In this document: positions 723 to 16,189 of the stretch, piece after piece | Numbering within the stretch: position 1 is the stretch's first letter | Layout: each line of letters starts with the position of its first letter | Made by a program: the position numbers and the translations under genes | From: a virus | Reading direction: 5' to 3' (one strand) | DNA length: 21,248 bases | Virus record (IMG/VR): IMGVR_UViG_3300020424_000041 | Coordinates: 1 to 21,248 of that record | The notes under the pieces: model-generated | Told to the model about the DNA's origin: nothing | Database searches by the model: none | What the model saw: only the letters and a program-made list of their open reading frames with translations

Positions 723-1613
723 TTATGGAGCATTACCTTGTAAAGTTCCAGAGTTACTTAATGTATAACTAACACCTGATAATTGAATGTATTTTCCAGC
801 AGAACCTCCAGAACCTCCACCAGAAGGACTCCCACCAGCATTACCATAAGTACCGCCGTTACCACCAGTGCCTCCTCCTGTAGATTGGTTATAGCCACCA
901 GCACCAAAAACGTTAAAACATACAGGATGTCCACCACCATTTCCAGCAGCAGTTCCAGCAGAACCGTTTGATTGAGATTGATCATAGCCTTGTCCGTTAC
1001 CACCAGCACCACCTACACCAGGACTACCAGAAGTACAGATTATACCACCACCAAACAGATTTATAGCACCTCCCTGTGTTCCTGCTGCGCCTCCGCCTCC
1101 GCCTCCGCCGCCTCCACGAATAGTTCCAGTGTTAGTAACGGTTACATTTGAAGAAGCAATATAAAGAGCAGTTCCGCCATCTGTAGCATTTCCACCATTT
1201 TGTGATCCACCATCTCCACCTGCACCCGATATAGTACCAGCGTTTTGAATATTTAAAGTACCACTCATTCCAGAAGGTACTTGTAGTGCATAATTAGATA
1301 AAGATGTAGCACCTAATTCAACACCACTGTTAATAACTAAAATTTTATTAATAGCAGAACTAAAGTTAGAACCAAATAAACTTGATACGTTTTGGTTAGT
1401 AGCACCAGAACTTAATGTAACAGTAACTTGATTAGCAGCACTATAAAAATCATCAAAAGATATTTCACCACTTGAGGGTACGTTAGGCGCACCTCCTGAT
1501 GTTACCCCTGCACTACCGCCAGCATAAAACTCAGATAAAGAATGAGGTTGAGAATCTCCAAATTCTGAAGCAATTTGAGAAAGAGAAATTGAACCAGAGC
1601 TTTGTAAAGGCAT
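723..1613 (-). CDS. Glycine-rich adhesin-like virion protein
   Basis: This 296-aa protein opens with a short module (MPLQSSGSISLSQIASEFG, about residues 1-33) common at the start of phage receptor-binding or tail-fibre accessory proteins. A second short motif of the same type (SGEISFDDFYSA) follows at about 48-59. Residues about 65-125 look like a beta-rich segment. Residues about 128-275 are dominated by Gly with Ala, Ser and Asn, including a run of nine Gly. Such glycine-rich regions form polyglycine-II-type sandwiches in T-even gp38-type adhesins; assigning that fold here is inference. The start overlaps the stop of the fibre gene as TAATG, so the two are translationally coupled. I infer a tip adhesin or fibre partner used for host recognition. 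A virion structural protein of other function is possible. Confidence 0.75.
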   Translation of the reverse strand: MPLQSSGSISLSQIASEFGDSQPHSLSEFYAGGSAGVTSGGAPNVPSSGEISFDDFYSAANQVTVTLSSGATNQNVSSLFGSNFSSAINKILVINSGVELGATSLSNYALQVPSGMSGTLNIQNAGTISGAGGDGGSQNGGNATDGGTALYIASSNVTVTNTGTIRGGGGGGGGGAAGTQGGAINLFGGGIICTSGSPGVGGAGGNGQGYDQSQSNGSAGTAAGNGGGHPVCFNVFGAGGYNQSTGGGTGGNGGTYGNAGGSPSGGGSGGSAGKYIQLSGVSYTLSNSGTLQGNAP

Positions 1614-4600
1614 TATTTAGCTCCTTTTAATTCTTCTACTTCTGCTTTTAATTCTTTAATAGCTTCTATAAGAACACCCACCATTTTTCCGTAATCAACA
1701 GATTTTACTTCTTTACCATTATGCTCACTTGTATGTACAACTTCTGGAATTACTTGCTCTACTTCTTGTGCGATAACACCAATAGAAGGCTCGTTGTTTT
1801 CTTTCCATTTGTATGAAACACCTCTTAATTTACCAACAGTACCAAGAGCATCATTAATAGTGTTTATATCTGTTTTAAGTGTTTTATCAGAGAAAGCAGT
1901 GATATTACCTGTAGCTGTTAAAGCACCTGTAACTGTAACTCCCGAAGAGGTTGTCTCAAATTTTTTAATGCTGTTGTGATATAGCTCTACTTGTCCACCA
2001 CCTATAGCTTTAATTATATTTGCATTACCAGCATCATTTAAAAAACGAATATTATCACCTTGTAAATAAAGAACTCCTGTATCGTTTTTTACATAACTAT
2101 TTGTTCCATCGTGATAGATTTGCAGGTCAGAGCCAGCACCAAATATTGCTTTCTTATTATCTTCAAACTTTACATTACCAGCACTACTTACTGTAAAGAA
2201 ATCAGTACCATCGCCACCTTCAACCAACAAGTTACCATTTCCGCTTCCAGCATTATCACCAATAACTAATTTAGATGTATGTGCTGAAGATCCTCCTAAA
2301 GTTAAAGTCCCACCAGCAGCACCATCAAAAGTTACATCTCCTGTAAAAGTACCGCCAGCTAAAGGCATTTTTGTTGCTATAGAGTTAGTAACTGTTGTTG
2401 AGAACGAAGCATCATCACCTAATGCTGCTGCAAGTTCATTAAGTGTATTTAATGTACCAGGGGCAGAATCAACTAAATTTGATATTGCTGTATCTGTATA
2501 AGCAGTTGTTGCTACTTTTGTACTGTTATCTCCAGCAGATTGCGTTGTTGCAGTTACTCCGTTATTTATATTTGCAGTGCTTGCTACTACACTACGCATT
2601 AATGTATCTGAAGTAGCTATATCAACTCCGTCAACTGTTCCTGATACTGTGATGTTTCCTGTTACGTCAACACCAGCACCTACATCTAAGTTGCCAGCTA
2701 CATCAACAGTTCCATTTGAATCTATTGTAAATCTAGTTGCACCAGCTTTTTGGTCAACTATCCTTAGATTACAATCATTACCAGAATCGTTAGACATTTT
2801 AAATTGGTATTCACCATTTGCTGTACCTGTACGAGCAAGTTTTAAAATACCTCCTGTACTTGTTTGAGATGCAGAAAGTAAAGTACTATGTATAGTTCCA
2901 GTTGCAGTAATAGTTCCTGTTGTTGCTATATTTTGCGATCCAAAATCAGGAGATACTTTTGTTCCAGCTATTGCAGCAGACGCATTTATATCTGCATTTA
3001 CGATACTTCCATCAACTATAGAGGCCGATACCACAGAATTGCTTGCCAGTTGATCCGCACCCACAGCATCATCAGCAATGTTAGCTCCTGCAATAAGAGC
3101 AAAACTTGTATTACCACTACCGTCTGTTTTTAAAACTCCATTAGTAACAATACTATTTGGAAGTGTAAGAGTATATGAGGCAGCAGCACTATGAGGTGGT
3201 CCTTTTAAAATTATTCCATGTGAGTTTTGCTCACAATTTAATTTTATTTGACCTGATCCTTTTGTTGAGTTACCTACTAAAGTAACAACATTAGAACCAC
3301 TTGGATTAAAATTTAAAGCTCCATTAGATGTAATATTTAAACTACCACTAACTTCTTCAATAGTCGATTGATTACTTGAATGATGTATTTTTAGATCCTG
3401 TCCTGTTCCAAAGATTGCTTTAGCATTATCAGCATAAACATTATCTCCAGTAAAATTATTACCAGTAGTTGAAGCAAAGTTACCCGCAGCAGTAACTCCA
3501 CCTTGCCAAGCTGTACCGTTATATACTTTTAATTCGTTAGCTGTTGTATTGAAATATAAATCACCTGCTGCGAGTGAATTACCCCCTCCATCTGTTGATG
3601 GGTTAGAAGATGCTACCTGGTATTGATCTCCAAAGTTTGCTATTGAACCTATATTTGAAGATGCTGTATTTACACTAGATATAGAACCAGCAACAGTATT
3701 TACGTTTGATATAGAACCAGCAACAGTAGTTATGTTAGTTGCATTGGAAACTGCACTATTAATATTAGTTTCATTACCAGCAACAGAGTTTATATTGCTT
3801 GCATTGGAAACTGCTGCATTTATATTTGACGCGTTACCAGCAACAGAGGTTACGTTAGATGATATACCAGCAACTGTAGTTACATTTGCACTAATACCAG
3901 CAACCGTAGTTACGTTACTAGCAATACCAGCAACAGTACTAACTTCAGTTGCTTTAGGAACAAGTCTATGAAAATTATAAGTATGTAAAGTTGATGTAGA
4001 CTCTACGATAAGACCAAAACCTTGAGGAATTGTACTTGGTGTAACTCCATTTATTGTTACAGTATTTCCTGTACCTGCTCCATTTGCAATAGTTATTACG
4101 TTTGAACTAGGAGTAAGAGTTGTTGATACCGCAGCTATAGATAGCAATGCAGCTTGCCCAGCAGCTCCTTGTGGGTTTGTTGTAGGAAAACTGGTTTCAT
4201 TTGCTATAGCATTAAAACCACCAACATCATCTACAAAGTCAATAATACGAGCATCTATAGCAGCAGTTGTAGCTACTTTGTCATCTGTACTGCTCCAAGT
4301 TTCACCTGATTGAATTTCTGCTACAGTTCCTTTTCCGTAAAATATTTCACCTGCACGTTTAGCAGAATACACTTTAGTATCACTTGTAGAAGTGCCAGAA
4401 GTAATAACAGCACCACCAGTAACATCAGCAAGTGTTGATGTTCCAGTTACTCCAAGAGTTCCGCTTAATGTTGAGTTGCCACTTACTGTTAAATTATCAT
4501 CAATAGTTGTTGTACCACCAGCAGAATCAATAGTTAAGTTGCCAGAAGCAGTATCTATTTCATTATCATTTGTTATTCCTATTCGTATATTATCAATAAC

Positions 4601-5332
4601 AGCACCACCATTAGCATCAATAGCACCTGTAACAGTTAACGTACCTGATAAAGTAGTATTGCCTGTAACTCCTAAAGTGCCTCCTACAGTTGCGTTGCCA
4701 GTTGTTGTTATATTTTGACTACCGAAATCAGGAGAAATCTTGGTTCCTTGTATAGCTGCATTTGCATTAATATCAGCATTAATAATAGTTCCGTCATTTA
4801 TCATTGCTGACGTTACTGTTCCTGTATCTCCTGTTGTGACAACTGTTCCTGTAATATCGGGGAAAGTGATTGTTCTGTCAGTAGTAGGATCTGTTATTGA
4901 TAAAGTTGTTTCATTATCGTTATTAGTAGAGCCTTCAAACACAAGGCTAGTATTTATAGTTTGCGAACCATCTCTTTTGACATAATCATCTACAAGTTCT
5001 TGTATTGAATGTAATAGCTGTTTATTAACATTATTTAACTCGGTAGCTGATAAAACACTTCCATCTGAAAAGAAGTGAGTTAGCCCATTTACTTGAGTAT
5101 TTCTTTGAATTAATATTGTTGCTCCATTGCTAGGTGCGCTAGTAAAAGTTATTTGAGTTGCACTTGTAAATGTATAATCTGTTGTTCTAGTTTTTAATAC
5201 TCCGTCTACAAAAACTTCAACATCAAATACAGTTGAATATTGAAAATCTAAAGAATAAGGACCAGTTGTTCCATTAGATGTAAGCGTAGTGGCTGTAGAA
5301 GCTGTGACGTTATTTACGGTATTAGTAGCCAT
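1613..5332 (-). CDS. Tail fibre protein with T7-type N-terminus and S74 self-cleaving chaperone
   Basis: This is a 1239-aa fibre. Residues about 1-120 match the T7 gp17 N-terminal attachment domain (FVDGVLKTRTTDY, then IQRNTQ and HFFSDGSVL), which anchors the fibre to the tail. The long shaft is Thr/Ser/Gly/Asn-rich and modular: a GTxxNADINAxAAI module occurs twice (about 180-212 and 775-806), a decapeptide repeat spans 464-563, and FGxGxDLxIxH modules occur at about 641 and 1064. The C-terminus is an Intramolecular chaperone (peptidase S74) domain with the SDKTLK motif; Ser1148 and Lys1153 fit the Ser/Lys pair used for autocleavage, followed by IGVIAQEVEQVIPEVV and a C-terminal coiled coil. 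In known members this domain trimerises the fibre and is then cut off. T7 gp17 is 553 aa, so this fibre is more than twice as long. No obvious Shine-Dalgarno sequence precedes the ATG, which lies 6 bases after the previous stop. Confidence 0.93.
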   Translation of the reverse strand: MATNTVNNVTASTATTLTSNGTTGPYSLDFQYSTVFDVEVFVDGVLKTRTTDYTFTSATQITFTSAPSNGATILIQRNTQVNGLTHFFSDGSVLSATELNNVNKQLLHSIQELVDDYVKRDGSQTINTSLVFEGSTNNDNETTLSITDPTTDRTITFPDITGTVVTTGDTGTVTSAMINDGTIINADINANAAIQGTKISPDFGSQNITTTGNATVGGTLGVTGNTTLSGTLTVTGAIDANGGAVIDNIRIGITNDNEIDTASGNLTIDSAGGTTTIDDNLTVSGNSTLSGTLGVTGTSTLADVTGGAVITSGTSTSDTKVYSAKRAGEIFYGKGTVAEIQSGETWSSTDDKVATTAAIDARIIDFVDDVGGFNAIANETSFPTTNPQGAAGQAALLSIAAVSTTLTPSSNVITIANGAGTGNTVTINGVTPSTIPQGFGLIVESTSTLHTYNFHRLVPKATEVSTVAGIASNVTTVAGISANVTTVAGISSNVTSVAGNASNINAAVSNASNINSVAGNETNINSAVSNATNITTVAGSISNVNTVAGSISSVNTASSNIGSIANFGDQYQVASSNPSTDGGGNSLAAGDLYFNTTANELKVYNGTAWQGGVTAAGNFASTTGNNFTGDNVYADNAKAIFGTGQDLKIHHSSNQSTIEEVSGSLNITSNGALNFNPSGSNVVTLVGNSTKGSGQIKLNCEQNSHGIILKGPPHSAAASYTLTLPNSIVTNGVLKTDGSGNTSFALIAGANIADDAVGADQLASNSVVSASIVDGSIVNADINASAAIAGTKVSPDFGSQNIATTGTITATGTIHSTLLSASQTSTGGILKLARTGTANGEYQFKMSNDSGNDCNLRIVDQKAGATRFTIDSNGTVDVAGNLDVGAGVDVTGNITVSGTVDGVDIATSDTLMRSVVASTANINNGVTATTQSAGDNSTKVATTAYTDTAISNLVDSAPGTLNTLNELAAALGDDASFSTTVTNSIATKMPLAGGTFTGDVTFDGAAGGTLTLGGSSAHTSKLVIGDNAGSGNGNLLVEGGDGTDFFTVSSAGNVKFEDNKKAIFGAGSDLQIYHDGTNSYVKNDTGVLYLQGDNIRFLNDAGNANIIKAIGGGQVELYHNSIKKFETTSSGVTVTGALTATGNITAFSDKTLKTDINTINDALGTVGKLRGVSYKWKENNEPSIGVIAQEVEQVIPEVVHTSEHNGKEVKSVDYGKMVGVLIEAIKELKAEVEELKGAK
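3644..3943 (-). repeat. Ten tandem 30-bp units encoding a decapeptide repeat in the tail fibre
   Basis: Codons 464-563 of the fibre form ten consecutive ten-residue units. Examples are VSTVAGIASN, VTTVAGISAN, VTSVAGNASN, INSAVSNATN and VNTVAGSISN, with the consensus [VI]-x-[ST]-V-A-G-x-x-[ST]-N. The underlying DNA is repeated with a 30-base period, seen on the plus strand as recurring accagcaacagt blocks. The units are degenerate, so the array is old or selected at protein level, and it probably forms a regular beta or coiled shaft section. Confidence 0.85.
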
Positions 5333-5338
5333 GATTAG

Positions 5339-8300
5339 TTAGTTTGAAGATGAGGAAGTGATGTTAAACAAAGGATTACTTAAAAAATCCTCACTTGCTT
5401 GTTTTTTCATTGCTGCATTAGCTCTATCATATTCTATTTTACGTTGAGGATTTTTATTTAACCAAACTTGTTTCCCTGCTTTTTTATATTTATTAATTTC
5501 ATCTCTTAAAGCATCTTCAGCAGAAGCTCTAGCATATTCAGATGCTCCTACAGAAACATCCATATTGGTTTGAGTTATATATTCTCCTCTCGCTTGTTTC
5601 AATAACTGTTGAAACTGTGGAGTTTGAATAATCTTGTTTAATGATTGAACCATAGTGACACCATTAATTTTTACAAAAGCAGTCTCTTCAATCAAGTCAA
5701 GATGCTCATCATAAGTTAACTTTATCCCACTATCTATTGGTTGACCACTAGGTAATCGTCCTAAAGACAAAGTATCAGAAGGTTGTGTTACTTTTGCTCC
5801 TAATTCTGACAAGGTAGTTAGAACAGTATTGTTAACGCTATTAGTTTCTTTTATTGGATTTAAAATGTCCATATTATCTGAACCATAACCAGCAGGATAT
5901 TCAATAAATGAGCCAGTGACCCAATTTCTCATTGGTCTTAAATTATTATTGTACCCAGGAACAGTTGCAGCTAACTCATTCCAAAATTTCTTTAATACAA
6001 CCATTCCATCATCACCTGCCCTTACTTTCTTGTCATATATTCTTCTATCACCTTCTATCATTTGTCCAAAAGGTTCATTAGCAACAGGTGTCTTTAAACC
6101 AAATTTCTTAACAGATCTTCCTAATGCACTATAAGGATTTACTGTAGATGCTAATCTTCGTGCAACCCATCGTTCTAGTTTATAAGGTTTTTGCAGCAAG
6201 TCTGACAATTCAGTAATACCTTGCAAATAAGTTTTGTTAGTTATATTACGACCTAATGCAACACTAGCAGCAACAGCCCAATCATCACGATCTTGTTTAG
6301 TTAACCCACCCATAATAGCTGCCCCATCAGCAGCCATCATAAGAAAAGAAGACCAAGGATCTAATCTTTTATAGCTTACATATTTATATCTAGGTTTTCC
6401 ATCTTTACCCATCCGAACATTTCCATCTTTATCTTTTAAAAGAAATCTAAAACTATAAGGCTGCCAACCTGTAGCACGTTTTTGATTTAATAAATCTAAA
6501 TTAGAAGGCCCACCACCTGTAATAGTTAATTCAGAAAGTGGATTGTTTTGACCAAATGCAACCACAGTAGCAGTACCCCATATCGCTGCACCTGTAACCA
6601 TTTCACCTCTAGCTTTAGCAGCGATAGAAGGATCTGGACTTCTTAATGCTTGTCTGTACTCTTCGATAAAAATGTTAAGCCCAGGAGTTCTTCTTGCTTG
6701 TGCTTTAAAAATATTTACTGGTGTTCTTACAAATGGTAAAAACACTCTGCCAACAGGATGTTGTGCTATATTTTGTACTCGACCTCCAATTCCATCAGGA
6801 TCTAGATTTTTTGTAAAAGTAGTTTCAGCAGCATATTCTTGTGCTTTTTCATATAATTCTGTAATTTGTGTATCTTTAACATTTTTAAAGCTATTAGTGT
6901 TAACTATTTCAATAGTGCCATCAAATTGTTTTTGTATATGGTCTGTTAAGTCTTGTCCTTTCAATCCTTTTCGTACTCCATCTTCCCAAGCAGTAGCTTT
7001 AACATAAGATCTAAAATTTAAACTTTTAAAAAATTCATCTTCTGCTAATAAAAAACGGCTTGGTAATCTAATAGCTGTTCCAAAAAGATTTACCATTGAA
7101 GCAAGTAGATTATCTCCTTCCATCCTTATCGTAAATCTATCAGAATCTTGTATCATCGCTCCTGGATTGATAATATTATCCTCTATCTCAAAAGCTAATT
7201 TAGCTGCTTTTAATGATTCACTAATTGATTCCCCTAAGTAATACAGTTCTTTAGCTCCTCTCAAAGCACCTGTAAGATCACCTGTAACAGCCGAACCTAA
7301 TGTTTGTTCCAAAGGTCTTGCAACACTATTTAAAGCTGTAGATAAGATGTTGACAGCATGAGTTTCTGGTCCTGATAATATTGAATTTATAAAAATTTCA
7401 TTTTGACCTTTTAAGACAGCAGAACTAACTTTTGCTATAGCATCATATTTACCCATTTTTTGTAACGCAGCAGGGTTGCCTTTAGCTGCTTGTAATCTTT
7501 TTGTTATTATTCTTAATTGTTTTAAAGATTTTTTATCACCTTTTTCAGCAAGGTCAATTATTTCTTTCATACTAAACTTAGGCAAAGAGTCTTCTCCTTC
7601 TTTTACTACACTTCTTAAGTTTGTCGCTTGATCAATCGCTTTCTCTGTAGGTGTTCGACCTTTTAAGTCTTGTATAGTTGCACCTACCCTACTGACACCA
7701 CCAGCAGCCCTATTAGCTGCTAATGTTTGTGCTGGTATTGTTTTTAGGGGTTTATTTAAAAGAATAAGACCATCTAACACTTCAGCCTCTTTAATAAAGT
7801 CTGCTTTGATATTTTTCAAACCTTCTAAATTACCACTAGCTAAACTTTCATCCATAGTTTTAGATAATCGTGCTAATTTAATAGCATTTTCATTCATCAA
7901 CTGGTTCATAGATATTAAAATTGCTGGTAAATCCTCTTCACCACCTCTTCCATATCTTGCATTAAATCTTACTGCTGCTTCTATTGTTTCTCTTGGTAAA
8001 AGTTTATTAGCATTATCAACCATATCGCCAAATGTTCTTTTATAAGGCCAAGAATTATTAGCATCAAGATCTCTTAATTTTGTAGCTCTATCAATAATTA
8101 GCCTTGCTGCTTCATCATTCCCACCACCTGTAAGAGTTTCAGTTTTATAGTACTTACCTTTTGTATTAGTTTTTGTGTTAAATGTGGTTTCTATTTTTTG
8201 TTTTTTCTTTCTTGCCATACCAGTAACTCCTTCTACATTTTCTAAATCCAAAGGAACATTTCTGTATTTTTTTACATTTTTTCTTTTTACATAGTCATTA

Positions 8301-10069
8301 AATATTTTTCTTGTTTGACTACCACCTAATTTAGCTTTCAAACTAACAAATAAATCTTCAACAAATAAAGCAAGTTCTTGTGTAATTCTTTTAAAAGTTC
8401 CTTGAGGAGCAAAATCTAAAGGGCTACCTGCAATACGATTTTCACCCCTATAAAAATCAAAAAACTCATCAGTAATGTTTTCTGCAAAATATTCATCTAT
8501 ATTCATAAATCTATAATTTTCATTTTTAAATTTACCTTGATCAAAATAAGCATTAGCTTTTCTTACAAAATTTTTATCTGTAATAACTGGTTTTCTATTT
8601 GTTAAAGAACCAGATCTCTCGAAAATAAGATCTGCCAATTTTTCTTTAGATGTAGTACGGATAAAAGTCTGTCTTTCTTTTTCAAATTTCTTTAAATATT
8701 TATTTTGAGCAGATTTAAATTCTTTTGTATATTTTGCTAAATCTTCTTTTGGCAAATATCTTGATAAACCATGAGAAAGTTCATGGATCATAACGTGTCC
8801 AAACCCACCACCTGCACCTTGTTCAACACCTTCTACAATTTGTTTTCTAATTTTTATAAGGTTATTAGCAAAGTTATACTGTCCTCCTTGACTAAGTTTT
8901 GTTGTTATAGATAAAGATTCTTGATCGAACATTCTATCGCCAATAGTGTCAATAAATGTTTCTATTGCTTCTACTTCATTAGGATCAGCACCTTTGGTAT
9001 TAACTTCTAATCTAAGTCTTTTCTTTAAATTATCTGCACCTCTACTTAAACCACGTTTTGCTTCCAAGTTTGTTTTAAATGGCTTTACTGGAGGTCTTTC
9101 TACTGGTTTAAAAAAGTCATCAAACTGCTCATCTGTTTGTATATCAAAAAACCCTTCTGGATCAATAAAGTCACCATCTTCACTTCTCGGTGGCAATGTA
9201 TCTCTACCATCTTTAAGTTGTTTTTTAAATTGACCAACCCCATCAAGATCAATAATTTCATCACCAAGATTATCAACAACATCATCTGTCATTAAAATTT
9301 CATCTCTTCTAGATAATCTTTTTGTTATTCGTTCGTATACATCAGGTACTTTTTTAATACCTTTAATACCAAGTCCTAAAACTGTCAAAGCTTCACCAGC
9401 AATAAACCCACCACCAGCTTGTCTTAGCCGTGCTTCTGCAACACTTATTTCGTCTTCTGTTTTAGATTTAAGTAATTCACTTATAGGAGAAGCAAGTCCT
9501 GGATGCTTATCAATCATATTAAATAAGTTTTCTTCAAACGGATCTTGTACAACTGCATCAGTAATAAAACCTGCTAAAGCATTTCTTGTCCAAGCATTAT
9601 TCATCCCTGCTAATTTTGTAGCCTTTAAACCTTTACCTATAAGTCCTTGTGGTAATAAAAACTGACTTACTGCTTGAGGTAAGGTGTAAGCCCAATCTTC
9701 TTTATCACCTTGAACTTCAAGACCTAATGCTTTTAAATCTATAATCTCGTTATTATCGTATGGATTACCAGCAGCGTAATCATAAATATCATCTACAAAT
9801 TCAACAGTTTCATTTATAGCTTTTAAAGGGCCAGATATAGTTCCTCTTAAAACTTTAGAAGTTTTTGTTTTTTTTAGCTTTGAATCTATTTCTTTTCTTT
9901 TTGCTATACCTTCATCTCTTATTCTTTGTCTGTTTTCTTTAATTTCTTCTAAAGTTCTTTTGTCACCTCCAAAAGCGTTGTCAAAAAAATCTACAGTTTT
10001 AGCTTGTGTATCTTGTATGGTTTGATCAAGATTTTCAAAGAAACCTTTTTTATTAGGTGTTTCGGTCAT
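5339..10069 (-). CDS. gp16-like internal virion (ejection) protein with metallopeptidase-like domain
   Basis: This 1576-aa protein occupies the T7 gene 16 position, between the gp15-like protein and the fibre; T7 gp16 is about 1318 aa. In T7 this inner-core protein is ejected and helps form the channel for genome entry. The N-terminus (1-75) is charged and partly coiled, with no transglycosylase signature. Residues about 365-545 carry HELSH at 429-433 inside VMIHELSHGLSRYL, then NIDEYFAEN at 523-531. H429, E430 and H433 with E526 as a possible third ligand fit a gluzincin-type zinc peptidase. Residues about 894-1240 contain the INSILSG...HAVNILS and ITGGGP...RLDPW blocks that I associate with large ejection proteins of marine podoviruses, and include hydrophobic stretches (about 1159-1173). 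The C-terminus ends in a Ser run. No clear Shine-Dalgarno sequence precedes the start, which lies 2 bases after the previous stop. The core-protein role rests mainly on gene order. Confidence 0.88.
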   Translation of the reverse strand: MTETPNKKGFFENLDQTIQDTQAKTVDFFDNAFGGDKRTLEEIKENRQRIRDEGIAKRKEIDSKLKKTKTSKVLRGTISGPLKAINETVEFVDDIYDYAAGNPYDNNEIIDLKALGLEVQGDKEDWAYTLPQAVSQFLLPQGLIGKGLKATKLAGMNNAWTRNALAGFITDAVVQDPFEENLFNMIDKHPGLASPISELLKSKTEDEISVAEARLRQAGGGFIAGEALTVLGLGIKGIKKVPDVYERITKRLSRRDEILMTDDVVDNLGDEIIDLDGVGQFKKQLKDGRDTLPPRSEDGDFIDPEGFFDIQTDEQFDDFFKPVERPPVKPFKTNLEAKRGLSRGADNLKKRLRLEVNTKGADPNEVEAIETFIDTIGDRMFDQESLSITTKLSQGGQYNFANNLIKIRKQIVEGVEQGAGGGFGHVMIHELSHGLSRYLPKEDLAKYTKEFKSAQNKYLKKFEKERQTFIRTTSKEKLADLIFERSGSLTNRKPVITDKNFVRKANAYFDQGKFKNENYRFMNIDEYFAENITDEFFDFYRGENRIAGSPLDFAPQGTFKRITQELALFVEDLFVSLKAKLGGSQTRKIFNDYVKRKNVKKYRNVPLDLENVEGVTGMARKKKQKIETTFNTKTNTKGKYYKTETLTGGGNDEAARLIIDRATKLRDLDANNSWPYKRTFGDMVDNANKLLPRETIEAAVRFNARYGRGGEEDLPAILISMNQLMNENAIKLARLSKTMDESLASGNLEGLKNIKADFIKEAEVLDGLILLNKPLKTIPAQTLAANRAAGGVSRVGATIQDLKGRTPTEKAIDQATNLRSVVKEGEDSLPKFSMKEIIDLAEKGDKKSLKQLRIITKRLQAAKGNPAALQKMGKYDAIAKVSSAVLKGQNEIFINSILSGPETHAVNILSTALNSVARPLEQTLGSAVTGDLTGALRGAKELYYLGESISESLKAAKLAFEIEDNIINPGAMIQDSDRFTIRMEGDNLLASMVNLFGTAIRLPSRFLLAEDEFFKSLNFRSYVKATAWEDGVRKGLKGQDLTDHIQKQFDGTIEIVNTNSFKNVKDTQITELYEKAQEYAAETTFTKNLDPDGIGGRVQNIAQHPVGRVFLPFVRTPVNIFKAQARRTPGLNIFIEEYRQALRSPDPSIAAKARGEMVTGAAIWGTATVVAFGQNNPLSELTITGGGPSNLDLLNQKRATGWQPYSFRFLLKDKDGNVRMGKDGKPRYKYVSYKRLDPWSSFLMMAADGAAIMGGLTKQDRDDWAVAASVALGRNITNKTYLQGITELSDLLQKPYKLERWVARRLASTVNPYSALGRSVKKFGLKTPVANEPFGQMIEGDRRIYDKKVRAGDDGMVVLKKFWNELAATVPGYNNNLRPMRNWVTGSFIEYPAGYGSDNMDILNPIKETNSVNNTVLTTLSELGAKVTQPSDTLSLGRLPSGQPIDSGIKLTYDEHLDLIEETAFVKINGVTMVQSLNKIIQTPQFQQLLKQARGEYITQTNMDVSVGASEYARASAEDALRDEINKYKKAGKQVWLNKNPQRKIEYDRANAAMKKQASEDFLSNPLFNITSSSSN

Positions 10070-10071
10070 TG

Positions 10072-12189
10072 TTAGTCAGTTAAAAACTTTTTGTAAGAGT
10101 CATTTTTGTATGCACTCCAAGCACCAAATCCTTGTTGATCAAACAATCTCTTTGCTGCTATTACATTAACAGTAGGATCATATAATTCATCTGTCGATTC
10201 TATTCCAAATAATTTCAATCTTTCTTCTAAAAACGCATCAATCATATTTAATTGGAAAAGACCTATAGAAAATTCATTTTTCTTTTCTGGATCTAAACCA
10301 GATTTTACAGTATCAATCATAGGATTACCTGCTGATTCTGCCATAGCTATAGCAGCCATTATTTTTGCTTCTTCTGGTTTGAAACCTACACCTAATAACA
10401 TTTGATTTATTTTGCTTTGTGGTATTTTTTTTGTTTTATCAGTATCTTTTAAAATCTCATTAAGTTTTTCTGTTTGATCTAGTTTGCGTTCTCTTGCTAT
10501 ATCTTCTGGGGTAGATGGTGTAAATGCACCACCTTCAAGATTAGTGTTAGCATCTCCTTGTATATCGCTCATATCTTGTTCTTGTCGCTCAGATTTCTTT
10601 CCTTCAGTTTCTCCTGTATTACCTACTCCACTTGTTATCTCAAATGTTGGAACTTTTTCTCTAGCTTGCTTGACGTACTTATCTATAATATCTAATCCCT
10701 TTCTTTCTTTCTCAAGGTCTGTTGATTTGCTTCCCTCTTCTGTTTCTGTCCAATCAAAAAATTCTCTAGATGCTTCTATCAAAAGATCATTTTTAATCTT
10801 AGTTCCATCAGCATTTAATTGACCTGTAAAATCACTCCAAAATCCACTGTTAGGTTTCTTTAACTCGCCTGATAATCTTGATTCTAATGTTCTTAAAGAT
10901 CTGTTAACAATGTCATATTGACCATCAAATGTTTTATCAACATAATTTAATAGTTTTGTTGAAAGATCTCGATTTTGCACTGAATTTTCAACTGTCCCCA
11001 ACCAATCAAATATTGCAACTATTGCTTCATTTTTAGTGCTATATTGATTAGTTTGAATATCTCTTCTTAAATCTAAATAAGATGTTCTACCTTTAAAGTC
11101 TATAACGTTTGCAGTTGTAAGAATACTTTTTGCTTTTGTAGGATATCTTTGAGCTAAATCTTCAATAATACTAGCATCACCTGTTTCATTGAAATCTTTA
11201 AGACCCTGTTCTATTTCATTATCTATAGCTAGTTCTTTTTGTATTTGATATTTTTTTGCGTTTTGATATTCATAAGCACTAACTTGTCTTTTTATGGTAT
11301 TAAATTTTTTTTGAAAATCAGGATGATCCATAAGACTTAAACTGCCATTTGGTCCATACGGAAATTTACCTGCAATAGCTAAAATGTCATTAACACCTTC
11401 TGTGTCACCAAGTAATGCCCTACCTTCGGCCTCTTCCATAATTGAAGATACAATAGATTTATAAATATCACTTCTATCTTTACCAGTTATTCCTAATTGA
11501 TTTACTGTAGTTTCATAATCTATTATTAGTTTTTCATCTAAACTGTCTGGGCTAATCATTAAATTTTGTACCAACGGAATGGCTAGTGTTTTAATATTCT
11601 CTAATTTTAAATTTTTATTTTCTTTAATATGATGAGAGGCTATTGATTCAGTTGCTGCTGCCAACTTTGGCATGAAGTGTTCTGTTACATAAAGAGATCT
11701 AATCCCATCTAATTTTTCTACAACTTTATCTCTTTCTGTACTTAACCAGTTTTGGTATTCCTCAGAATCTAAAGAATATTCACCTAAAGATTTACCATTA
11801 ATTAAAGTAGTTGAATAGCTATTAGTTAAAATACTTTCAACATTATTACCCAATAATTGAGCTTTAGTTTTTTGAAAAGCTCTGTCAGCAAAAATACTAC
11901 CACCAATTAGTTGTCTAGTAGCTTCTTCTCCATTTATGCTTTTAAATTCTTTTGTAACATCTTTAAATCCATCTAAAGACTCTTCAATAGCAATATCCAT
12001 ACCTTTAGCTTGTTCATCTTCAATAGTTTTTTTAGTATAAAAATCAAGAACTGGATTAACGGCTGACAAAGCTTTTGCTAATTCATCAAAGCCATCATCT
12101 TTCATTAAAGGAACAGTGCTTTGCCTAACAAAGGTATCAACAGGTCTTGCTGAAGATTGAAAAGAAGTACTTTGATAACTTGATGTCAT
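10072..12189 (-). CDS. gp15-like internal virion protein with C-terminal lytic transglycosylase domain
   Basis: This is a 705-aa protein in the T7 gene 15 position; T7 gp15 is 747 aa. Residues about 30-500 are mostly helical, Lys/Glu/Ile-rich sequence expected of a gp15-type core and tube protein. Residues about 521-587 form a hydrophilic Gly/Glu/Thr linker. Residues about 588-705 read as a lytic-transglycosylase fold: AIAMAESAGNP with likely catalytic Glu618, SIGLFQLN at about 641-648, LYDPTVNVIAAKRLF at about 669-683, and GFGAWSAY at about 687-694. These are the usual blocks of SLT/goose-lysozyme-like peptidoglycan-cleaving domains in phage virions. In T7 this activity is the N-terminal domain of gp16, so its location here is a domain shift. 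The start overlaps the previous stop as ATGA. Cleavage of peptidoglycan during genome ejection is inferred from the family. Confidence 0.88.
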   Translation of the reverse strand: MTSSYQSTSFQSSARPVDTFVRQSTVPLMKDDGFDELAKALSAVNPVLDFYTKKTIEDEQAKGMDIAIEESLDGFKDVTKEFKSINGEEATRQLIGGSIFADRAFQKTKAQLLGNNVESILTNSYSTTLINGKSLGEYSLDSEEYQNWLSTERDKVVEKLDGIRSLYVTEHFMPKLAAATESIASHHIKENKNLKLENIKTLAIPLVQNLMISPDSLDEKLIIDYETTVNQLGITGKDRSDIYKSIVSSIMEEAEGRALLGDTEGVNDILAIAGKFPYGPNGSLSLMDHPDFQKKFNTIKRQVSAYEYQNAKKYQIQKELAIDNEIEQGLKDFNETGDASIIEDLAQRYPTKAKSILTTANVIDFKGRTSYLDLRRDIQTNQYSTKNEAIVAIFDWLGTVENSVQNRDLSTKLLNYVDKTFDGQYDIVNRSLRTLESRLSGELKKPNSGFWSDFTGQLNADGTKIKNDLLIEASREFFDWTETEEGSKSTDLEKERKGLDIIDKYVKQAREKVPTFEITSGVGNTGETEGKKSERQEQDMSDIQGDANTNLEGGAFTPSTPEDIARERKLDQTEKLNEILKDTDKTKKIPQSKINQMLLGVGFKPEEAKIMAAIAMAESAGNPMIDTVKSGLDPEKKNEFSIGLFQLNMIDAFLEERLKLFGIESTDELYDPTVNVIAAKRLFDQQGFGAWSAYKNDSYKKFLTD

Positions 12190-12743
12190 GCTTGTCCTAG
12201 TAACCCTGTATAAGTATTAACTCCAGCACCTAAGAAATCAAATAACCCGCTAGTATTTCTTTTAGCAGTATTGTAAGCTTGGTTTTGCATATCAGTTGCG
12301 GCATTTAGTCTACTATCTCTTTGTGCTGCAAGACCAAGTGTTTGTCTTCTAAATTGACCTTCTGCTGATGCTACCGATTGATTTATTGAATTTCTTAAAT
12401 TAGCAGCTTGTCTACCCGCATCCATTGACAATAAATTTGCCACGTTACCAGAAATACCTTCTGAAGCTGCAACAGCACCTCTAGCCTGTAAGCCTTTTAT
12501 AGATGCCGCCAATCTTTCTTGTGCTTTTGCCGCTTTAGTTTCTTTTAGATTTGCTGCTAATCCTTCTTGTTGTTGTGCAAAAGCTTTCTCTGCTGATTCT
12601 GCTGATCTTCTTGCTGCTTCGTATTGATAATTAGCTGCTCGTGCTGCTTGTCTATTTTGTGCAACCATTTGTGCGCCTTGAATTGCTAGGCTTCCAAAAA
12701 ACAATGGAGTAACTGCTCCTAAAGCTGGTAATGCTGCACACAT
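12186..12743 (-). CDS. gp14-like internal virion protein
   Basis: This 185-aa protein matches T7 gp14 (196 aa) in position and character. A hydrophobic N-terminal stretch (about residues 3-27) is followed by a long Ala/Gln/Arg-rich helical region (about 30-150) and a Gly-rich hydrophobic end (LFDFLGAGVNTYTGLLGQA). In T7, gp14 leaves the head and inserts in the outer membrane as part of the genome-ejection channel. The start directly abuts the upstream gene's stop and has AGGA about ten bases ahead. The stop overlaps the gp15-like start (ATGA). The identification rests on gene order and composition. Confidence 0.85.
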   Translation of the reverse strand: MCAALPALGAVTPLFFGSLAIQGAQMVAQNRQAARAANYQYEAARRSAESAEKAFAQQQEGLAANLKETKAAKAQERLAASIKGLQARGAVAASEGISGNVANLLSMDAGRQAANLRNSINQSVASAEGQFRRQTLGLAAQRDSRLNAATDMQNQAYNTAKRNTSGLFDFLGAGVNTYTGLLGQA

Positions 12744-13196
12744 TTAGGCAATCCTCATAAATTCATAGAATGGTTTGCTATGCTCTCCATATTCTGCGTG
12801 GTAATTAATAAATGTAAAGCCTAAACACCTTAACCACTTTATAGCAGAATCATTTTCTGCATATACCATATTGTATAACAAATTATATTTTTTCAACAAA
12901 CTATCTACCCATTGTTTGCCTTGTCTTATAAGTTGTATTCTATATTTTTTATTTACAAACAAATCATCTGTTGCAACCATCCATATACAACCATCAGAAA
13001 CAACACCACATAGACCTATAGGGTTGTCGTCATCATCAGCTATTGCCATATTTTCTTTGGTGTATAGATAAGAAAGTCGTATCGCATTTTCTGGTTTTTG
13101 TCCTGTTTGATAAAAAACTTCAATTTTATCCATAACCCTTAAGTTTTTTACTACATAATCAAGATCTTTTAATTTTGCTTTTCTTAAATATCCCAT
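12744..13196 (-). CDS. T7 gp13-like protein with GNAT-type fold
   Basis: This 150-aa protein lies between tail tubular B and the gp14-like protein, where T7 has gene 13. The C-terminal half resembles what I recall of T7 gp13: an IWMVATDDL block, a KKY..L...VYAEN segment and a W.KxLGF-like block (IKWLRCLGFTFINYHAEYG at about 120-138), then a final FYEFM strand. This is also the layout of GNAT acetyltransferases (a beta strand, then N-x-x-A-I-x-x-L-x-x-x-G-F). The usual Q/R-x-x-G-x-G/A acetyl-CoA loop is only weakly visible (LIRQGKQW at about 89-96), so catalysis is doubtful. T7 gp13 is needed for assembly of infective particles. The start overlaps the upstream stop as TAATG. Confidence 0.75.
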   Translation of the reverse strand: MGYLRKAKLKDLDYVVKNLRVMDKIEVFYQTGQKPENAIRLSYLYTKENMAIADDDDNPIGLCGVVSDGCIWMVATDDLFVNKKYRIQLIRQGKQWVDSLLKKYNLLYNMVYAENDSAIKWLRCLGFTFINYHAEYGEHSKPFYEFMRIA

Positions 13197-16189
13197 TATC
13201 TTCTAGCTGACCTCATGTGAAAATTAGCTTCATATTCAGCACTTGTTAAATTTGTAGGCAAGTAAGTTAAATTTTTTACATCTATCGTAACTCTGTCTGC
13301 TCTACTCATTACCGGAACTTTAAAAGTACCAGTATCTAAAGAGGTTGATCCAATGATACTATCATCTGTACCTAATATTGTAGTAAATTCATATGTTGAA
13401 GTTGTATTGTTATCAGGAGTAACTTCAACTTTCATAAATCCAGTATCTTCAAATTTAATATAAAAATGTTTTAATTGTAATCTTCCGCTAATTAATTCAG
13501 AACCTTGAGTAGGAGATTCAGTAAGACGTTGTTGTGCAAACCTATAGTGCATTTCATAAGGTTCACCAATTATAAATTTAGCGTGTCTAACATCACCAAC
13601 AACTGTTATATTTTTATTACCGCCAACAAGATTGAAAGAAATAATTTCTTGACCAGGAGATGTAGTAGTTTTTACACCTTCAAAAGTAGTTATATAACTA
13701 GATTCTCTTACTGTGCATATAAGATTTGTATTGTTTCCTAAATTAGATGGACTAACAAGAGTAAACGTATTGTTATCAACTTTAGTTATATAAAACAAAC
13801 CTGTAATACCTCTATCTCCCCCTAGTGCTACATATTCAGCAATTCTTTCTACAGTTAAATCTGCAAAGCTAGTAATACCTGATGATGGTAAGACAACCTC
13901 AACTTGGTCATCAGTAACAAAACCATGATTAGTTTTTGTTATTGTAACTGTATTGTTAGAAGTCGTAGTGGTATAAGTTGCGTGTTCGGCTGGTGCTAAA
14001 TCTCTTGTTATCATGTTCATTTCTTCATCAAGCCTGTAAGGCATTGTTACTGTTGATAAAGAAGTAGAAGCATCAAATGTAATAGATACTCCAGTACTTG
14101 ATTCTGTTAACTTTCTATCTAGTCGGTATTCATAATCAGAATTTGGTTCTCTGTAGTTTGGTTCAAAAGGTAATTTTTCTAAATTATATTCTGACGCAGT
14201 ACCAGCTTCAGGTGCATCTTCAGTAACTACAAATAAATCTGTTCCTATAAAATCTATATTTTTGATATGTCTGTCAGAGGCAAAAGTATAAGTAAACCAT
14301 GAGTTAAGTATTTTTCCTCCGTCATTACCATACAACCATTTGTTTACATATAACTTATTAGGATTTGTTGTTCCTAATAAAATTAATACATCTTCATTAG
14401 TAGAAACAGCAATTTTATAAATATCGCTAGGAATTAATTTTGGAACATGAATTGTAATGTTTGCAGCTTCTTTAACTTGCGCTCCTGTTTGAGTTATATA
14501 TTCTCTTACACCAGCAAAACCACCTTTATTAGTTAAATAGTAAATAGAATTACCAGCACCAACAGGAGTTGCACTATCACTACTTTCAAATTCTGTTGCA
14601 ACAAGCACGTTTGCTGTCTTAGGTGTTAAAGAATCTGATGAACTGCTTAAAACAAATTGCGTTTGCTCTGAAAATAATATTAATTTTTCGCCCATGTTTA
14701 CAGCATTTTTTAAAATAGCAACTTTCGTGTGAGATGCTGCCACATCAATAGGATCACTATCAATAACTGTTAATACTGTCTCTGGGAAAAAAGTAAAAAA
14801 CTTAGAAACAGTAGAAAGAATTACATTGTCATTAGCAAGAAAACCTAATCTATTTCTAAAGAAAAATACATTATTAATCTTGTTACCAATAAAAGAAGGA
14901 TTTAAAGAAGAATCTAAATCTCCACAAATTCTTTCACCCCATATTGGCAGCGTATAGTTTGGCACAGCATAACTAACGCTACCGCTAGTTGTTAAAGTAT
15001 CTACCGCAGTATATACAAAGGTATTTGTAGTAACGCTTGTTATAGCAAAAGTACCATCAACACCTAATCCTGATGTAATCTTTACATCTACAAGACTACC
15101 AACAGCTAAACCATGACCATTAGAAGTAACTGTTACAGTAGTACCCGATTGAGAATAAGTACCTGATGTTGAATGAGTTATTGCATACGACCTACCATCT
15201 ACTCTTGCAAATCTAAAATTACCATCAGCTTGCCTTATTAAAACATGAGGCATTGTATCGTAGTCAAATTTAAAATTTATTCCTGGTGCAACTGTTTCTT
15301 CCCATTGGCCTTCTTCAAATGCTCCTCCATTATTAGTCGTAAATCTTACATAATAATTATCAAAGTTAGTAGACTCATCACCTTTAATTTCTACAACCAT
15401 ACCGTTAGGAGAAACTGTAGGTAAGTCAGTAAATTGTTGTACAGAATTTTTTACAGTTGTTATTTGTGAGTTACCTCGTGTATCAGTAGAATCTATTGAA
15501 AAATCAGAACCGTCATTTTTTTTTATATGAAGAACAGGACCATTTACAGCAATAGTAAATCCAGTAAGGCTGCTATCTAAACTTGTTTTTATTGCTGTTG
15601 CTACGGTAGATGTACTAAGGGGGTTATCTGAAGACGTATCTTTGGTTGCTGTTGTTCCATCTACTGTTACTGAATATGTAGTGGCATCAGATACTTGGTT
15701 AAAAAATACTATTGCTTGTGTTTCTGTTCCAGGAGATAAAGTTGAATCCATTGCAGCAGTAACACTTGTATTCACAACAAAAGTAAAATCTGCAATAGTT
15801 ATTGTTTTAATTTGTGATTGTGGACTTGTGCAAGATAAATATCTGTAGTCTTCTTTTACGGTTCCAGAATCGCTGTCATAATATTTATTAGTAACAACAG
15901 TTTTTTCTGTACCATCTAATTCAAAAACTCTTACTTTTGTAGAACTAAAAATAACAACATATCTTTCTGTTGCATCTCTATTTATCATATGTACCTTTAT
16001 GTCACCTAAACTTGTTTCACCACTAATTAAATTAGATACAAATTGAGTACCAGAACGTTTTGTAAGACCCAATACTGGATCACTATCAGCATTGTCCTGT
16101 ATCAAAGCATGGTCGGCTTTTTTTGTAGCATCAGAAGATTGTGATATACCTCTGAGTAAAGTGGGTATTGACCTAGAAATTAGAGCCAT
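13196..16189 (-). CDS. Tail tubular protein B (gp12-like nozzle)
   Basis: This is a 997-aa homologue of T7 gp12 (794 aa), the tail nozzle below the gp11 ring. The recognisable core is LPIWGERICGDLDSSLNPSF (about 414-433), then INNVFFFRNRLGF at 438-450, SKFFTFFPETV at 462-472, DPIDVAASHTKVAILK at 479-494, and FSEQTQFVLSSSSDSLTPK at 506-524. These follow the T7 gp12 core closely. The N-terminus (LISRSIPTLLRGISQSSD) is the usual gp12 start. The extra length comes partly from two beta-rich inserts, about residues 343-408 and 738-825, which share an HG...V.V...G..G.F.IT.V..NTF pattern. It starts 2 bases after tail tubular A and its stop overlaps the next start (TAATG). Confidence 0.95.
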   Translation of the reverse strand: MALISRSIPTLLRGISQSSDATKKADHALIQDNADSDPVLGLTKRSGTQFVSNLISGETSLGDIKVHMINRDATERYVVIFSSTKVRVFELDGTEKTVVTNKYYDSDSGTVKEDYRYLSCTSPQSQIKTITIADFTFVVNTSVTAAMDSTLSPGTETQAIVFFNQVSDATTYSVTVDGTTATKDTSSDNPLSTSTVATAIKTSLDSSLTGFTIAVNGPVLHIKKNDGSDFSIDSTDTRGNSQITTVKNSVQQFTDLPTVSPNGMVVEIKGDESTNFDNYYVRFTTNNGGAFEEGQWEETVAPGINFKFDYDTMPHVLIRQADGNFRFARVDGRSYAITHSTSGTYSQSGTTVTVTSNGHGLAVGSLVDVKITSGLGVDGTFAITSVTTNTFVYTAVDTLTTSGSVSYAVPNYTLPIWGERICGDLDSSLNPSFIGNKINNVFFFRNRLGFLANDNVILSTVSKFFTFFPETVLTVIDSDPIDVAASHTKVAILKNAVNMGEKLILFSEQTQFVLSSSSDSLTPKTANVLVATEFESSDSATPVGAGNSIYYLTNKGGFAGVREYITQTGAQVKEAANITIHVPKLIPSDIYKIAVSTNEDVLILLGTTNPNKLYVNKWLYGNDGGKILNSWFTYTFASDRHIKNIDFIGTDLFVVTEDAPEAGTASEYNLEKLPFEPNYREPNSDYEYRLDRKLTESSTGVSITFDASTSLSTVTMPYRLDEEMNMITRDLAPAEHATYTTTTSNNTVTITKTNHGFVTDDQVEVVLPSSGITSFADLTVERIAEYVALGGDRGITGLFYITKVDNNTFTLVSPSNLGNNTNLICTVRESSYITTFEGVKTTTSPGQEIISFNLVGGNKNITVVGDVRHAKFIIGEPYEMHYRFAQQRLTESPTQGSELISGRLQLKHFYIKFEDTGFMKVEVTPDNNTTSTYEFTTILGTDDSIIGSTSLDTGTFKVPVMSRADRVTIDVKNLTYLPTNLTSAEYEANFHMRSARR

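Follow-up and report, generated by a model that had tools for sequence, protein, structure and literature searches.

The DNA analysed here (the window) comprises the 21,248 nucleotides of the virus record IMGVR_UViG_3300020424_000041 of IMG/VR, and its minus strand carries an intact reading frame for a protein of 1576 amino acids (5339-10069). The C-terminal body of this protein matches the internal virion protein family phrog_6651 (E=3.4e-53), and tblastn aligned it at 21-32% identity with proteins annotated as internal virion protein D in Pelagibacter, Roseobacter and cyanobacterial Autographiviridae. The genes for the gp14-, gp15- and gp16-like proteins and the tail fibre are arranged in T7 order (Table 1); the 1576-residue protein shares a homologous C-terminal body, the gene order and the phrog_6651 match with T7 gp16 and with internal virion protein D of the marine Autographiviridae. 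Profile searches found no SLT domain in it, this domain being located in the gp15-like reading frame, where both SLT_3 (E=1e-10) and SLT (E=1.5e-5) exceed the Pfam cut-offs. The locus is a T7 ejection operon in which the muralytic domain has moved from gp16 to gp15, a swap previously described for K1E-type phages (PMC8954989). An earlier note on this DNA had remarked that T7 gp16 has a transglycosylase instead of a peptidase signature, which fits this arrangement: T7 gp16 bears SLT at its N-terminus, whereas the window protein has a putative peptidase cassette, with SLT on its gp15-like neighbour. A further gene within the ejection operon, at 12744-13196 on the minus strand, is GNAT-like and matches phrog_308 ('internal virion protein') as well as acetyltransferase PHROGs. 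The tail fibre (1613-5332, minus strand, 1239 amino acids) has a T7-type N-terminus and a C-terminal S74 intramolecular chaperone, and the annotated record closest to the reading frame 13196-16189 comes from Prochlorococcus phage P-SCSP2 (62%).

Table 1. Features of the ejection operon and of the gp16-like protein in the window
Feature	Position	Strand	Basis
gp16-like ejection protein (internal virion protein D), 1576 aa	5339..10069	-	ORF; phrog_6651; tblastn
N-terminal backbone, residues 1-275	9246..10069	-	common to cassette-less relatives
Exchangeable cassette, residues about 277-622	8201..9245	-	blastn and protein alignment
Conserved core of the probable peptidase, residues 344-603	8261..9040	-	alignment of 21 homologues
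HExxH motif HELSH, residues 429-433; H429 and H433 predicted as zinc ligands, E430 as general base	8771..8785	-	
EYFAE, residues 526-530; E526 predicted third zinc ligand, E530 also invariant	8480..8494	-	
C-terminal backbone with the conserved gp16-like region, residues 624-1576	5339..8200	-	alignments with relatives
Internal virion protein region of highest conservation, residues 1001-1318	6116..7069	-	phrog_6651 match
gp15-like internal virion protein; SLT lysozyme/transglycosylase domain at C-terminus, residues 600-692	10072..12189	-	Pfam
gp14-like internal virion protein	12186..12743	-	Pfam T7_gp14, E=1.5e-10

The gp16-like protein contains a single HExxH motif, for which a chance expectation of 0.0027 was calculated from its composition, and the motif is absent from every other main reading frame of the window. 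It lies in a segment (residues 365-545) that corresponds exactly to positions 8435-8977; for the core alignment and the structure prediction, residues 344-603 were used. H429, E430, H433, E526 and E530 are invariant in all 37 distinct homologues with full coverage, a count that is partly circular, because part of these homologues was fetched with patterns containing HExxH; the same five residues are, however, also invariant in 23 of 23 full-coverage sequences fetched via other regions of the protein, with the motif unused. Altogether, 49 of the 272 columns are invariant in the alignment of the 37 homologues, and position 432, one of the 'x' positions of the motif, is occupied by either Ser or Trp. 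Since dN/dS of the cassette ranges from 0.06 to 0.34, it is under purifying selection, and this as well as the conservation can be read directly from the alignments. The spacing between HExxH and the downstream Glu (92 residues) is long. As in the ATLF (lethal-factor-type, peptidase M34) and M90 families, HExxH is followed by E-[FY]-F-A-E, and weak ATLF matches (E 0.1-2) extend over the motif, but the window domain differs from these families in spacing and flanks and scores 12.6 bits with the ATLF Pfam model, below the gathering threshold of 27.4. The pattern HExxH plus E[FY]FAE, applied to viral contigs, also fetched many unrelated proteins, some of them genuine ATLF/M90 peptidases that, unlike the window domain, score above the ATLF or M90 cut-offs. 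The motif pair is thus a mark of zincins, but alone it is no evidence of kinship.

Comparison with relatives delimits the cassette sharply. Five IMG/VR relatives have flanks 90-96% identical to those of the window protein. In L001, L003 and L004, residues ~277-622 are missing and a linker of 9 residues is found instead (cassette-less close relatives keep 9-13 residues at this slot), while in L002 and L005 an ART-like domain takes the place of this stretch. In blastn against L001, the flanks are 93.7% identical at the DNA level, the alignment halting at 9246 and resuming at 8200. The reverse situation is found in L006, L007 and L008, which contain the cassette of the window at 82-88% protein and 83-86% DNA identity, but outside it are just 17-39% identical to the window protein; with L006, the sole blastn alignment inside the gp16-like gene covers 8198-9229 (85.9%). 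Judged from these breakpoints, the cassette is a defined internal block moved by recombination, and its borders, its exchange and its replacement by ART-like domains are evident from the sequence comparisons themselves. Searches by tblastn against annotated phages gave no match for the window cassette and chance matches only for the cassette type of a second lineage (see below), and two scans of bacterial genome contigs yielded no homologue of the cassette. The domain appears to be confined to phage contigs at the sensitivity of these bacterial-contig scans.

How often the slot is filled was counted in 71 distinct proteins with the window-type backbone and their nearest relatives, in which both flanks were resolved, the window itself being excluded. 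The slot is empty in 46, holds an ART in 19 and other short inserts in 3; HExxH domains were found in a further 3, two of which (L020, L021) had been found via the peptidase. In 14 annotated phage relatives, nearly all of them cultured isolates, none of the cargos is present. The inserts of the L002/L005 type have FYHG, G-[FL]-Y and HQGG motifs that are invariant in 17 sequences, and they match DUF3990 (E=1e-4) and ART-PolyVal (E=0.13), both below cut-off; YHG and G-[FL]-Y would contain the His and Tyr of an ART active site, and the inserts of L002 and L005 are probably ADP-ribosyltransferases.

A motif pattern led to homologues about 46-48% identical to the window cassette on a second backbone. 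This second lineage, collected by a scan with that backbone and without use of the motif, comprises 34 full-length proteins and one fragment of a split gene. HExxH is present in 31 of the full-length proteins and absent from three; 16 proteins have the window type, whereas 15 have one of two other HExxH types, namely HE[GAS]TH (type B) or HE[IML]LH and similar (type C). Different HExxH types occur even in pairs whose backbone proteins are up to 100% identical, and L202 and L203 share ~99% identical DNA on both sides, while their middles differ. The slot of this lineage also contains domains above Pfam cut-offs: ART-PolyVal was found in L245 and L153, and LPD37 (large polyvalent protein associated domain 37) in L246 (2118-4346), L241 (453-2108) and L232 (453-1988). 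GYF_2 and HTH repeats occur there as well. Cargos can be combined, as in L153 (ART-PolyVal and window-type peptidase) and L246 (LPD37 and type B), and in most cases the HExxH domain separates the gp16 body from the other cargo, such as HTH repeats, ART or LPD37.

Searches of Pfam, NCBIfam and PHROG assigned no peptidase family at cut-off to the window domain, and sequence searches of the PDB returned nothing credible. Pfam matches of single cassette members to M13, ATLF, Memo and DUF4241 were below cut-off and inconsistent, and were rejected. AlphaFold2 models of the cassette are of low confidence (pLDDT 50 with 10 sequences, 64.5 with 21 sequences) and contain no predicted strands; a helix is placed at the HExxH site in such a model, for which Foldseek against the PDB gave no match at E<=0.001, but helical-bundle coincidences only. 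In profile comparisons using hhalign, the window type aligned with type C at a probability of 78.9%, with HExxH and the downstream Glu collinear, whereas none of 30 controls, shuffled or reversed, exceeded 1.2%; in hhalign, E526 lay opposite the conserved Glu in two further HExxH families. Types B and C aligned with each other at 97.8%, and both match phrog_2206 (virion RNA polymerase) in the profile region 2014-2249 (E 6e-6 to 4.7e-10), which is where the vRNAP of N4 bears its HExxH-containing C1 domain (PMC12633501). Alignments of the window type with the N4 vRNAP alone (6.7%), type B alone (0.2%) or B and C combined (6.9%) were not significant, and the chain of profiles leading from the window type over type C to the phrog_2206 vRNAP can thus be called good but not direct. 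E526 probably is the third zinc ligand, and the cassette domain is probably a gluzincin-type peptidase, for which we infer a zincin fold. On these points the earlier note is borne out: it had recognised HELSH (residues 429-433) and EYFAE (526-530) of the reading frame 5339-10069 (-) as a gluzincin-like signature within a gp16-type ejection protein, had taken E526 as the probable further ligand, now found collinear with the Glu of other HExxH families, and had turned to the conservation of all four residues, which holds both in the complete set of homologues and in that collected without the motif.

T7 gp16 is packaged in the head and enters the cell together with the genome, and its homology suggests that the gp16-like protein of the window is ejected likewise. 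We consider it likely that the gluzincin-type HExxH peptidase is an optional, exchangeable cargo of this protein, which is ejected into the host cytoplasm and cleaves a protein. An optional cargo slot between the N-terminal block and the gp16 body would, in the window phage, be filled by the peptidase; this domain would be packaged in the head within the ejection protein, thread the tail with the other ejection proteins, reach the host cytoplasm as infection starts and there cleave a protein, and recombination at the edges of the slot would swap the cargo for nothing, for an ADP-ribosyltransferase or for one of at least three HExxH types. ART domains need NAD+, a cytoplasmic substrate, so the slot likely faces or reaches the cytoplasm, and since it is used by ART cargos, the HExxH peptidase, presumably binding zinc and proteolytically active, would be cytoplasmic too. 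As most close relatives have an empty slot, the peptidase seems dispensable for assembly or entry. Most simply, it would be an early effector acting on a host protein; a host protein is the favoured substrate, and the ejection protein itself a distinctly less probable one.

Cleavage of the ejection protein itself is the main rival to a host-protein effector, even though we regard it as unlikely. The peptidase would cut its own ejection protein after ejection or inside the head, thereby releasing the N-terminal part or the channel body. Self-processing is among the roles proposed for the metallopeptidases of polyvalent proteins, where it is backed by the cleavage of P1 DdrB (PMC5512222), and the usual position of the HExxH domain in the second lineage, between other cargo and the gp16 body, is as expected of a releasing enzyme. 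The window cassette, however, has no other recognised cargo to release, 19 relatives contain ART cargo without a peptidase, which argues that release is not generally needed, and proteins with an empty slot function without it; moreover, the vRNAP of N4 is packaged uncut (PMC5512222). A non-proteolytic or structural domain, in which the motif is a relic or part of a metal-binding scaffold, seems improbable. For many HExxH-like domains protease activity is unproven, the accessible part of PMC12633501 reports no proteolysis for the N4 C1 domain, and the models of the cassette are of low confidence with no Foldseek match, but a relic would lose the four catalytic positions, which are invariant among homologues down to about 47% identity, and three different HExxH types substitute for each other at one site. 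To about the same small degree we would credit an envelope-acting protease, located in the periplasm or at the membrane and cutting envelope proteins to aid genome entry: the ejection proteins of T7 span the envelope and the lysozyme domain of its gp16 acts in the periplasm (PMC8954989), yet the muralytic domain here belongs to gp15 and the slot, empty in most close relatives and thus not needed for entry, also takes up ART domains; because of their need for NAD+, periplasmic action is disfavoured. An assembly protease processing core proteins inside the head, a task known for other phage proteases, is very improbable and was rejected as a required role, because the whole domain is missing from most close relatives, among them phages that share the core genes and have flanks 92-96% identical to those of the window protein. 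The overall interpretation of the earlier note therefore stands with respect to signature, third ligand and conservation, but of its proposals a required role in assembly is not supported and a periplasmic site is disfavoured, and it had overlooked the nature of the domain as a cassette that can be exchanged for several others.

The general kind of such proteins is already known. Polyvalent proteins, as described by Iyer et al. (2017, PMC5512222), are large, predicted to be injected with phage DNA, and contain ART domains and zincin-like metallopeptidase (MPTase) domains, and the HExxH peptidase, the ART and the LPD domains found here, with ART-PolyVal and LPD37 above Pfam cut-off in second-lineage relatives, resemble their repertoire. 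Unlike in polyvalent proteins (PMC5512222), the carrier here is the T7-type gp16 ejection protein itself, and the terms gp16, ejection and internal virion are absent from that paper. The slot, in addition, frequently contains no cargo or just one, the window type of peptidase matches no Pfam model, and the window protein combines one recognised cargo domain with the gp16 body, as opposed to the several disparate domains of polyvalent proteins. The C1 domain of N4-like vRNAPs (Schitoviridae; PMC12633501) is likewise a zincin-like HExxH domain of a giant virion protein ejected by a short-tailed phage, but is fused to an RNA polymerase, unlike the domain of the window protein. T4 Alt and MuF-linked toxins are comparable as head-packaged injected enzymes or as virion-protein fusions with exchangeable ends (PMC9503650); T4 Alt, however, is a separate protein and MuF a different carrier with exchange at the C-terminus, whereas the cargo of the window protein is exchanged internally, between two conserved blocks. 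Internal virion proteins have also been listed among the genes of metaviromic islands (PMC3909814), which fits an exchange at the slot. In the literature searched, no paper places such cargo in a T7-type gp16 ejection protein or calls the slot exchangeable. The best reading of the window protein would be that of a T7-like counterpart of the "polyvalent" effector proteins.

Podovirus ejection proteins are usually studied as an entry channel. Here, one such protein bears, at a defined position in its interior, an optional enzymatic cargo that is rapidly exchanged, which links T7-like phages to the polyvalent effectors of N4-like phages and plasmids. By scanning this one slot, effectors that abundant marine phages deploy in the first minute could be found, and the empty-slot relatives with 92-96% identical flanks are natural controls for testing the effect of the cargo. 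As a tentative generalisation, on which we would hesitate to insist, the gp16 ejection protein might serve T7-like marine phages as an injector for general purposes, the cargo slot of which recombines; near-identical phages would exchange ADP-ribosyltransferases, different zinc peptidases and further enzymes, probably tracking the defences or targets of the host, and the peptidase, once injected, would cut a specific host protein as infection begins.

Several further features were observed in individual relatives. In L090 (gp16-like reading frame 2326-5856) the slot consists of 'QIDINKVDLDALADP' only, the tail end of the ART cassette, left as a deletion scar, while the cassettes of L087 and L085 contain extra domains beside ART (a RQKILPGT...GYDGRWVTKKHF module and a second domain), extending the slot to 433-630 amino acids. 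Tandem HTH-like repeats (HTH_40 above cut-off) precede the HExxH domain N-terminally in L154 (4515-6218, minus strand) and L145 (5770-7419, minus strand) and recur in L160, on a different backbone. By eye, a methyltransferase-like stretch (VDIGGGKFDNAVDML...) can be discerned after the type C HExxH domain in L203 (2082-4334) and L236 (2646-4346); that of L203 matches phrog_14016, a family of unknown function. Finally, in L151 / L237 the gp16-like gene is split by one in-frame stop within the C-terminal body, representing either a sequencing error or a nonsense mutation.
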